A DNA stretch of 64,000 bases from positions 1-64,000 of the forward strand of contig JACPOA010000019.1 of the NCBI GenBank assembly GCA_016185205.1. Direction: 5' to 3'. Positions 10,706 to 13,435 of the stretch are shown piece by piece. The DNA comes from Hyphomicrobiales bacterium. GTDB taxonomy: Bacteria; Pseudomonadota; Alphaproteobacteria; Rhizobiales; Xanthobacteraceae. Each line of letters opens with the position of its first letter. Position 1 is the stretch's first letter. The notes below the pieces were generated by a model that was given only the letters and a program-made list of their open reading frames with translations, had not been told where the DNA came from and searched no databases. The translations under genes were made by a program, and so were the position numbers.

Positions 10706-10908
10706 TTAATGCCGATCCTTGGCAACGGCGCTGATGGCATCGAGCATGGCGGCGCGGCCGTCTTTCGGCGTCGCGCGCACTTTCTCGTGCTTGCCGAGCG
10801 TGCCCATCTCGCGCTGGCGCGCGACCGTGGCATCGACCATCAGCGGATCGAGGCCGAGCTCGCGCAACGTGGCGGCGGATTCTTCCATCTCGGCGGCGCG
10901 GCGCTCGC
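10706..10908 (-). pseudogene. 3' remnant of NAD(P)-binding DUF1932 dehydrogenase gene
   Basis: Encodes ...MEESAATLRELGLDPLMVDATVARQREMGTLGKHEKVRATPKDGRAAMLDAISAVAKDRH*, duplicating the C-terminus of the intact gene at 13560-14408. Confidence 0.9.
10711..10908. repeat. 198-bp direct repeat, copy 1 (3' end fragment of DUF1932-type dehydrogenase gene)
   Basis: Base-by-base comparison with 13565-13762: one mismatch (10767 G vs 13621 A). Confidence 0.97.
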
Positions 10909-11757
10909 GGCTACGGTTGCCTCTCCGCGCTTACCCTCAATCACGGGTGCCATCGAAACCATGCGTTCGAGGGTTGCGAGAACCCGTTCAGGCGTTCGAC
11001 GCGCACTGACGGTATTCGAAAGCAGGGCAAGCGCTCCATTGCCCGGTGACAATGTTAGCGGTCGCCAGCGCGCGCTCGGTTTGTAGGCGCTCATGACGAC
11101 GAGTCCGACCGGCAACGGTTTACGCCCGGGCCGTCCGCCGATCTCCTCGACTGGGATATTGCGTTGCCGCCCACTTCCGTTTTCGCGAAGCGAAAGTGGT
11201 TTAAGATAGGGATGCACACGGCCCACGGAATCGAGCACTGCGAATTCGTCGGAATAATAAGTCGCGCCGGCTTTCACCAACTCCATGACAAGATTTGTTT
11301 TGCCGACGAAGGATTTGCCCGGGAGCACGATCGCCTTGCCATTCCAGCCGACAGCTCCGGCATGAATGAAGACGCGGTTGCGGGCCAATTCCGCCGTGCT
11401 CAACCGAACGGCGGTTTCGAATGAATCCAAAATATCATCGAGATCGTGCGACCGGGCAAACCTGACGTGGTCGACATAGACAACATTATAACGGCGGACC
11501 CGAGAATTCCCTTCGCTGCCTCCCAGAATTACCGAGAAATAGCGGTCGACGACTTCCGCGTCGGAAGCCGTCGCGTCCGCTGGCAGGCGTTTGTGCAACA
11601 TTGGCAAAAGAGCGGGATCGCTGACCCGCACGCCGAAGTGGATTCCATAGCATGTGAACGAGAAGCCGTGGCTCCATTCAACTTTGTTGAGATTGCCCCA
11701 GCAAACGGTTGTGGCTTTGCTGGAGAGAAGCGGCAGCGGAATCGCTAAGGCCGTCAT
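10840..11757 (-). CDS. HPr kinase/phosphorylase C-terminal-like kinase (HprK-related), C-terminus altered by the direct repeat
   Basis: IHAGAVGWNGKAIVLPGKSFVGKTNLVMELVKAGATYYSDEFAVLD = HprK-like Walker A plus SDE segment; last ~21 residues are encoded inside repeat copy 1. Confidence 0.8.
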   Translation of the reverse strand: MTALAIPLPLLSSKATTVCWGNLNKVEWSHGFSFTCYGIHFGVRVSDPALLPMLHKRLPADATASDAEVVDRYFSVILGGSEGNSRVRRYNVVYVDHVRFARSHDLDDILDSFETAVRLSTAELARNRVFIHAGAVGWNGKAIVLPGKSFVGKTNLVMELVKAGATYYSDEFAVLDSVGRVHPYLKPLSLRENGSGRQRNIPVEEIGGRPGRKPLPVGLVVMSAYKPSARWRPLTLSPGNGALALLSNTVSARRTPERVLATLERMVSMAPVIEGKRGEATVAASAAPPRWKNPPPRCASSASIR

Positions 11758-11779
11758 ATGCTATCGTCCCAAATTGAGA

Positions 11780-12961
11780 TCAAGAGACAGCCTCTTTAGG
11801 GAGGTGTCTGCGCCGACCAGCAATTGAATGAATTGCGGCGCAAAGGCGATTGGACACCGCGGTCACAATTGCAGCGCCAAGAAAAGCCAGCTGGTATAGC
11901 AAACGCGATTTTCTGCCGAAATTTCCTCCGCTCTTGAACGTCGCGGAGATCGGATTAGGCCAGCGTGCTTTTAGTTGCGACGGAATGATCCAAGGCTTGG
12001 CCGCCCAATACGACCAGGGCTGCTTCATCCGAGACAGGTATGGAACTTGCCATTCATTTAAGGCGGTGCGCATGAACCAATCCGGCAGAGTATCGACATG
12101 GTATGCTTGCGGAAGGCCTTCAATCCGCGCGCCGAGCAGGCGGCGCGCCAATTCGAAGACGCAGGCCAGCCAGTGCGCGTAACGCGGGTCTTTGCCAAAA
12201 CAAATGTCCCAATCAAAATCACCGGGAACGGTTTCCAGCATGGCAGCGACATCGCACAGCCATAACGGACGGTAGCCGCCATGGCGGAGAAAATGCATGG
12301 CCACAAGACGAAGATGATCTTCGTGAGACAGGATGCGGATTGCACGATCACCGCAGGCAATCCTTTGAGATCGCGCAAAAAGAGTGTCGAGCGAAGGTAA
12401 ATGAAATTGATCCAGGCCGGCATGCAGATCGATTTGGCACAGCTTGCCGGCTGGGCCGCAATCGAGGACGAACGGTCCGTTGACCAAGTTGTTGACGCCG
12501 GGAATCACATGCCGTTGGAGCAGTTCCCGCGCCTCGGCGTGGCGGCCAGGCTGAACGCAAATGTCGATATCGCCGAAGGGGCGGAGATGGGGCAGCGCAT
12601 AGTGCTGAGCGCTCGCCCAGCCCTTGAAGATGAGGGGTTCCAGGCCGTTCAGAGCGAGGCGTTCCGAGAGGAAACGGATCGAGCCTTCATTCATCGTCGC
12701 TTGTAGTGCCAAGTGTCGATACATCGCCCGGAGATTGGCTGTTTCCGGAGCGCTCGTAAGGTGCGCGGTGCGGGAAGCCCGGTTCCAGGCGAGCCCGGCC
12801 GCGCCGGATGATGTCAGCAGCGGTTCTACCCGTGCGAGCTCCTCGGAATTGATGGTCAGAGCGGGCGGCTCACGTCGCCAAGAGCCGGCAAGAACGTTTG
12901 CGACAAGGTGCCCAAAAGTGAATCCACCGTGGGTCGGGGCGGTTAGCAATGTTGCACTCAC
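11780..12961 (-). CDS. Nucleotidyltransferase family protein (NTP_transf_5-like)
   Basis: LEPLIFKGWASAQHYALPHLRPFGDIDICVQPGRHAEARELL and LSHEDHLRLVAMHFLRHGGYRPLWLCDVAAML; GTG start 6 bp after the PqqD stop. Confidence 0.8.
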   Translation of the reverse strand: MSATLLTAPTHGGFTFGHLVANVLAGSWRREPPALTINSEELARVEPLLTSSGAAGLAWNRASRTAHLTSAPETANLRAMYRHLALQATMNEGSIRFLSERLALNGLEPLIFKGWASAQHYALPHLRPFGDIDICVQPGRHAEARELLQRHVIPGVNNLVNGPFVLDCGPAGKLCQIDLHAGLDQFHLPSLDTLFARSQRIACGDRAIRILSHEDHLRLVAMHFLRHGGYRPLWLCDVAAMLETVPGDFDWDICFGKDPRYAHWLACVFELARRLLGARIEGLPQAYHVDTLPDWFMRTALNEWQVPYLSRMKQPWSYWAAKPWIIPSQLKARWPNPISATFKSGGNFGRKSRLLYQLAFLGAAIVTAVSNRLCAAIHSIAGRRRHLPKEAVS

Positions 12962-12967
12962 AGATGT

Positions 12968-13435
12968 TCAGGTGCAGGTGCCGGCCACACACAAGCCGCT
13001 GGCACAATCAGCATGAGACGCACAGGGAGCGCCTGTGGGAAGGCCCGACGCAGCATCAGCGACGGTCGGCACGACGATGCTGGTAACGACAGGAACGGCT
13101 GCGGCAGCGCCCACCGCTAAAGTCCTGAGCAGCGCGCGGCGGCTGCCCCCGCCGAGCACCCAAGCAGGGACCTTGCAAGGTTCATCCAGCAATTGTGACC
13201 GACCCAGTTGCGCAAGCGCAAGCCAAACGGCACGCTCATCAATGCTGTCGGCGGTATTTTTGGCGATCTCCTGCGCAATCGCAGCCGGCAATGTAGCGCC
13301 ATCGCAACGGCTCCAAACCTGAGCCGCAAAGGAATTCAAGCAGGTCGCTTGATTGCGGTCACGATCATAGATCAGCACCTCGCTATCGAGATTCCGCACG
13401 ACGATGCGATCGCTGCGGGCGCGAGGGGGCTTCAT
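12968..13435 (-). CDS. PqqD/RRE-domain protein fused to a Tat-like hydrophobic segment and Cys-rich C-terminal peptide
   Basis: PqqD core (IVVRNLDSEVLIYDRDRNQATCLNSFAAQVWSRCDG), then SRRALLRTLAVGAAAAVPVVTSIVVPTVADAA and ASGLPTGAPCASHADCASGLCVAGTCT*. A TTG start at 13465 is possible but ATG 13435 is preferred. Confidence 0.78.
   Translation of the reverse strand: MKPPRARSDRIVVRNLDSEVLIYDRDRNQATCLNSFAAQVWSRCDGATLPAAIAQEIAKNTADSIDERAVWLALAQLGRSQLLDEPCKVPAWVLGGGSRRALLRTLAVGAAAAVPVVTSIVVPTVADAASGLPTGAPCASHADCASGLCVAGTCT

Follow-up and report, generated by a model that had tools for sequence, protein, structure and literature searches.

What do an HprK-type kinase and a nucleotidyltransferase act upon when their genes lie next to that of a PqqD-like protein? 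The question is raised by a locus in contig JACPOA010000019.1 of a Hyphomicrobiales bacterium (assembly GCA_016185205.1, in 112 contigs), the first 64,000 nucleotides of which were analysed and are referred to below as the window. Three minus-strand open reading frames (ORFs) encode a PqqD protein with the fold of a RiPP recognition element (RRE; RiPP, ribosomally synthesized and post-translationally modified peptide), a nucleotidyltransferase (NTase) of the NTP_transf_5 type and an HprK-fold kinase. The answer that we favour, with some reserve, is that the trio forms a self-contained RiPP-like system: the recognition element and its precursor are parts of one protein, which the kinase and the NTase modify and the twin-arginine translocation (Tat) pathway exports. 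An earlier note on this DNA had proposed a minimal peptide-modification system, acting by phosphorylation or nucleotidylation. That remains the best reading, relatives of both enzymes being known for such chemistry; what the note overlooked is the fusion as candidate substrate, the Ser/Thr at its junction and the chimeric end of the kinase.

The PqqD protein carries a signal and a Cys-rich tail

The N-terminal domain of the PqqD protein is modelled by AlphaFold with a pLDDT of about 94 and adopts the winged-helix fold of an RRE. Its best match in the PDB is the lasso peptide RRE TbiB1, bound to its leader (probability 1.00, TM-score 0.75). PqqD itself and TbiB1 are discrete RREs of this same fold; beyond them, the window protein carries about 70 residues, made up of a signal and a Cys-rich tail. 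The protein scores 22.1 bits against PF05402, slightly below the gathering cutoff of 23.4, and all 53 aligned relatives match the model.

Profile alignment of about 100 non-identical relatives of the fusion revealed a single plan: an RRE, a Tat-like signal ending in AxA, a Ser or Thr, and a hypervariable Cys-rich tail. The segment following the RRE begins with S-R-R, continues into a hydrophobic stretch with the pattern P-x-[VI]-x-[ST]-[IL]-x-x-P and closes with AxA and the Ser/Thr. The Arg pair is invariant (100/100), as is the first Pro (96/96), and the Ser/Thr within the hydrophobic stretch (95/100) and the second Pro (97/100) are nearly so. The residue directly after AxA is Ser or Thr in 97 of 99 proteins (75 Ser, 22 Thr), with the next Cys present in only 73 of the 99. 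The invariant RR, the hydrophobic stretch and the AxA are features of Tat substrates, and TatC is encoded in this genome. Two relatives depart from the common form: in one (L132:1201-1920) the tail is a long Thr/Pro-rich repeat and not Cys-rich, and another (L127:419-884; G424 C8) is split into two overlapping frames beside an intact paralogue.

The enzymes and the arrangement of the genes

The middle gene had been described as NTP_transf_5-like, an identity borne out by its match to PF14907 (E 1.3e-25; 90.8 bits against a cutoff of 31.2). Thirty aligned NTase sequences share invariant KG...GDxD and DLH motifs, and the fixed residues include GDxD and a further Asp. The kinase matches TIGR04352 (HprK_rel_A) with 50.7 bits (E 1e-13), well below the 200-bit cutoff of that model. 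A Walker A/P-loop (PGxSxxGK) and an SDE motif are invariant in 25 aligned kinase relatives, and a fold search with the AlphaFold model returned PEPCK and HprK structures with probabilities of 0.97-1.00, which places the enzyme in the PEPCK/HprK superfamily; the P-loop and catalytic Asp of such kinases are present. The structural comparisons thus support the RRE and HprK folds that had been assigned earlier. The tight packing also holds as first described: 6 bp separate the PqqD stop (12968) from the GTG start of the NTase gene (12961), and 22 bp lie between the NTase stop (11780) and the kinase ATG (11757).

Recurrence of the trio and enzyme-to-substrate ratio

A kinase profile search of species-representative genomes yielded 200 related loci, 80 of which were kept, truncated contigs among them. 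All three genes are present in 47 of the 80; a further 12 have only the PqqD gene besides the kinase and 9 only the NTase gene. The trio therefore recurs in other genomes, as the reading of the earlier note requires, and spans Acidobacteriota, Gemmatimonadota, Chloroflexi and Rhizobiales. A search begun with PqqD gave 58 short loci that match it, and the kinase, the NTase or both accompany it in 41 of these. The order of the genes is kinase-PqqD-NTase in most phyla and PqqD-NTase-kinase in the window, with a divergent PqqD gene in Mesorhizobium, which argues against simple vertical inheritance of one operon. In Mesorhizobium and in a Rhizobiales genome (L002, L003, L004 and L025), where the PqqD fusion diverges from an NTase-kinase pair, genes for a LacI-type regulator and an AcrB-type pump adjoin.

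The kinase gene is single in 16 of the 17 kinase-bearing genomes checked for copy number and present twice in the other. The same genomes contain from 1 to 6 PqqD-fusion matches each (one locus being broken by stops), some of them on other contigs. One kinase thus faces several PqqD fusions in most of the genomes checked, as would be expected if a single set of enzymes acted on a number of precursors.

The fusion protein as probable substrate and its junction Ser/Thr as candidate acceptor

These observations suggest the following course of events. The RRE would present the C-terminal segment of its own protein to the HprK-like kinase, which would phosphorylate the conserved Ser/Thr directly past AxA (Ser130 in the window protein). 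The NTP_transf_5 enzyme may add a nucleotidyl or a sugar group to the resulting phosphate. The fusion protein would be exported through Tat and cut at AxA by ordinary signal peptidase I, releasing a disulfide-bonded mini-protein with the modification near its N-terminus.

Precedents for both enzymatic steps come from characterized pathways. In the system of the linear polyphosphorylated peptides (LPP), the HprK-like kinase LppK puts phosphate on core residue Ser3, which lies just past the site that a signal-peptidase-like enzyme cleaves (PMC13381572). In pseudomycoidin, PsmK phosphorylates a Ser and PsmN is needed for the appearance of hexoses on the phospho-Ser (PMC8498205, PMC9266682). By these precedents the Ser/Thr past AxA would be the natural acceptor and the NTase a second-step enzyme. 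The PqqD fusion itself is most likely the substrate of the modification and, by analogy with LppK, the Ser/Thr at the AxA junction is probably the phosphoacceptor.

The junction residue might instead be kept only for cleavage by signal peptidase or for folding, the enzymes modifying a tail residue or another part of the fusion. Residues at cleavage sites are often small, and a second Ser/Thr, the one within the hydrophobic stretch, is conserved in 95% of the relatives. Yet at the junction Ser and Thr replace one another (75:22) and almost nothing else is admitted, even in proteins that have lost the next Cys, and LppK acts at the equivalent place. To our knowledge, moreover, signal peptidase I does not demand Ser or Thr after the cut. 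We consider this alternative fairly unlikely.

A second alternative concerns the fusion as a whole. It could be merely a membrane-anchored docking protein, with the RRE bringing the kinase and the NTase to the membrane, the RR-hydrophobic stretch as an uncleaved anchor and another molecule, for example a lipid or a polysaccharide precursor, as the target. Exopolysaccharide-type genes (GNVR tyrosine kinase, O-antigen ligase, GT1) do lie nearby in at least 23 of the 80 loci, and, for a signal that is cleaved off, the hydrophobic stretch keeps its Pro and Ser unusually well. A docking role is nevertheless distinctly unlikely: a hypervariable, Cys-rich end behind AxA and a conserved Ser/Thr fits a released product, the presence of several PqqD fusions per kinase fits substrates, and in the HPr-rel-A loci discussed below signal and PqqD are found on different proteins. 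If the fusion is indeed the substrate, the exopolysaccharide neighbourhoods raise the possibility that the installed group might even link it to the surface polysaccharide.

Several points weigh against the scheme of a self-docking, Tat-exported precursor. Tat signals do not usually follow a folded domain. The signal segment is modelled with only moderate AlphaFold confidence, and the Tat-signal models match a minority of the family (TIGR01409, 5/53 members; TIGR02811, 7/53; PF10518, 2/53). At the threshold used, the NTase is missing from 4 of the 17 genomes. In the window itself the tail has four Cys and the kinase end is chimeric. Finally, no effect of LppN could be detected in a heterologous host, and LppK left an S3T variant unphosphorylated (PMC13381572), whereas Thr makes up 22% of the junction sites here.

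Most Cys-rich tails have a knottin-like spacing

The tails match several Pfam knottin families, weakly. Most share the spacing C-x5-7-C-x4-7-CC-x3-4-C-x-C of the inhibitor cystine knot; unlike knottins, they are bacterial and fused behind an RRE, many show other Cys patterns, and the window tail retains four of the six Cys. The first and fourth Cys (C1 and C4) were compared in 62 parsed tails, sorted loosely and without separation of the different Cys topologies: both are present in 36, both absent in 17 and only one of them is found in 9, so that the two are present or absent together in 53. Clean paired loss within one spacing is seen in the window and in the tails L052 and L113. As C1 and C4 are bonded to each other in a cystine knot, the bonds of which run 1-4, 2-5 and 3-6, their loss as a pair is expected, and the window tail, judged by its Cys pattern, probably holds two disulfides.

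Insertion site and state of the cassette

The trio is a recent, horizontally acquired, low-GC insertion in this genome. It is surrounded by 198-bp direct repeats that differ at one position and that both copy the 3′ end of a dehydrogenase gene. In two congeners the dehydrogenase terminates in KDRH*, as does repeat copy 1, whereas the full-length gene in the window ends in KDRR*; this indicates that approximately 2.66 kb of DNA were inserted into the end of the gene with a long duplication. In the congeners the dehydrogenase gene and a gene for a substrate-binding protein adjoin, with no cassette between them. The GC content of the insert is 0.58, and its GC at third codon positions is 0.61-0.64 as compared with 0.79-0.88 in the flanking genes. 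Of the 398 genomes of the order that were sampled, this one alone showed the PqqD fusion, the Mesorhizobium-type relatives having come up in another search. We found no second copy of the cassette in this genome and no transposase inside the insert. The 198-bp repeat is longer than a usual transposition target duplication.

These repeats set the limits of the cassette (Table 1). The earlier note had placed it at 10840-13435: the genes are as it described, but the boundaries are those of an insert extending from 10909 to 13564, with kinase homology stopping near 10913. Past that point (10840-10912) the kinase ORF runs on into the copy of the dehydrogenase tail. A kinase relative with 94% identity (P0145) ends in VAAQAILESLNSK, continuing AQAILESLNSK where the window reads VAASAAPPRWK...; the final 25 residues of the ORF are therefore not kinase, and about 10 native residues have been lost from its end. 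Because of this loss the activity of this genome's kinase copy is uncertain.

Might the cassette be a decaying passenger here, devoid of function? Repeat sequence replaces the end of the kinase, two tail Cys are missing, and every other sampled genome of the order lacks the fusion. On the other hand, all three frames are open, the catalytic motifs are intact, and other lineages have likewise lost C1 together with C4. On balance, decay strikes us as somewhat doubtful.

A group II intron occupies positions 8834-10692 of the window (plus strand), with its reverse transcriptase/maturase at 9223-10599. Its position, right after a hairpin 3′ of the gene for the substrate-binding protein, is that of group IIC introns, and partial copies occur elsewhere (G000:C106 and G000:C64). 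The idea that this intron carried the cassette is unsupported, the intron lying outside the repeat and having boundaries of its own. Carriage by a plasmid or phage was likewise dismissed: the NTase has no match in plasmids and the kinase none in phages.

Table 1. Position of the cassette, its parts and its borders in the window
Feature	Position	Strand	Evidence
Fusion of PqqD/RRE, Tat-like signal and Cys-rich tail; proposed self-docking precursor, 155 aa	12968..13435	-	ORF, PF05402, RRE fold, family alignments
RRE (PqqD-like) domain, residues 1-85	13181..13435	-	AlphaFold, TbiB1 match
Tat-like signal SRRALLRTLAVGAAAAVPVVTSIVVPTVADAAS, residues 98-130 (RR, PxV, S/T, P, AxA, S130)	13046..13144	-	Family conservation
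Ser130 codon, candidate phosphoacceptor right after AxA	13046..13048	-	Conservation and analogy with LppA Ser3
Cys-rich tail GLPTGAPCASHADCASGLCVAGTCT, 4 Cys (most relatives: 6, knottin spacing)	12971..13045	-	Family alignments
NTP_transf_5 nucleotidyltransferase, 393 aa, GTG start	11780..12961	-	PF14907, conserved motifs
HprK/PEPCK-fold kinase, homologous portion	10913..11757	-	TIGR04352, motifs, fold search
Chimeric C-terminus of kinase ORF, out-of-frame reading of duplicated dehydrogenase tail	10840..10912	-	Comparison with relative P0145
Possible sigma-70 promoter, TTGCTA-17-TACAAT, extended -10	13504..13532	-	Consensus scan only
Inserted DNA, only the trio and its upstream region	10909..13564	.	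GC, repeats, comparison with congeners
Direct repeat copy 1, ancestral 3′ end of dehydrogenase gene (KDRH*)	10711..10908	.	Repeat alignment, two congeners
Direct repeat copy 2, present 3′ end of intact dehydrogenase gene (KDRR*)	13565..13762	.	Repeat alignment

The scan that pointed to the possible promoter returned 2 candidates in the region, as against 0.9 expected.

Comparison with known systems

In open-licence PMC papers we found no description of an RRE-precursor fusion system with a kinase and an NTase. Tentatively, the family could represent an unnamed but widespread class of secreted mini-proteins with the RRE inside the precursor, in which one kinase and one NTase install a phosphate-linked group on the junction Ser/Thr of several scattered knottin-like cores of hypervariable sequence. 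If true, a recognition element acting in cis with its own precursor would make for a simpler form of RiPP recognition, with export left to Tat. It would also name a candidate substrate and acceptor residue for HprK-related kinases and NTP_transf_5 enzymes, and point to a family of bacterial Cys-rich mini-proteins perhaps missed because they resemble ordinary PqqD proteins.

Three known systems share parts with the cassette, HPr-rel-A and LPP being the nearest to it. In paeninodin-type lasso clusters an HprK-like kinase, an NTP transferase and a discrete RRE occur together (PMC8498205, PMC9266682), and the cassette could be viewed as the remnant of such a cluster with the cyclase and protease encoded elsewhere. 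There, too, the kinase acts on a peptide Ser and an NTase homologue is needed for hexoses; the acceptor, however, is a C-terminal Ser (PMC8498205, PMC9266682). A lasso cluster was rejected and a lasso remnant is very improbable: neither a macrolactam synthetase (the lasso cyclase) nor a B2 peptidase turned up in the insert or in those conserved neighbours that carry an annotation, and the Cys-rich tails are unlike lasso cores.

The LPP system (PMC13381572, Nat Commun 2026) has in common with the cassette an RRE, an HprK-like kinase, an NTP transferase, and a precursor with a conserved N-terminal and a variable C-terminal part. Its phosphorylated Ser near the cleavage site has a counterpart in the Ser/Thr conserved at the equivalent place here, and its loci often contain polysaccharide genes, as do at least 23 of our 80. 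Its RRE, in contrast, is discrete and its leader bears a YxxPxVL motif, whereas here the RRE is fused to a precursor with a Tat-like signal; the [YW]xxP motif is absent from the window fusion. LPP clusters, mostly from Bacillota, also encode a dedicated SpI-like peptidase, LppS, and an MsbA-like exporter. Neither a dedicated peptidase nor an exporter was seen in the insert (SpI-like genes were not searched by profile), and a full-size ABC exporter-like ORF lies near the trio in 1 of the 80 loci. The Tat-like signal and ordinary signal peptidase would take the place of these two components.

In the HPr-rel-A system (TIGR04352 HprK_rel_A and TIGR04353 PqqD_rel_X), kinase, PqqD and NTP_transf_5-like NTase genes lie side by side, as in the window. 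We know of no role assigned to the HprK-related kinase or the NTP_transf_5 enzyme of these loci. Most of 12 betaproteobacterial TIGR04352 loci inspected encode a separate protein with a Tat-like RR...P-[VI]-x-x-[TS] signal followed by Cys, its gene adjoining those for a small PqqD (the two checked match TIGR04353), the kinase and an NTase-like protein. In the signal proteins of the HPr-rel-A loci L168-L179 the sequence SGNLS recurs after the first Cys, and no NCBIfam match was obtained for the five full-length and one short protein scanned. What is separate in HPr-rel-A is fused here, and the window family accordingly reads as a fusion of the same parts. By score the two remain apart: the window kinase does not reach the TIGR04352 cutoff (50.7 against 200 bits), and the window PqqD has no TIGR04353 match, 17 of its 53 relatives matching weakly. 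The cassette belongs neither to the LPP nor to the lasso clusters, nor, by score, to the HPr-rel-A equivalogs; it would work like all three.
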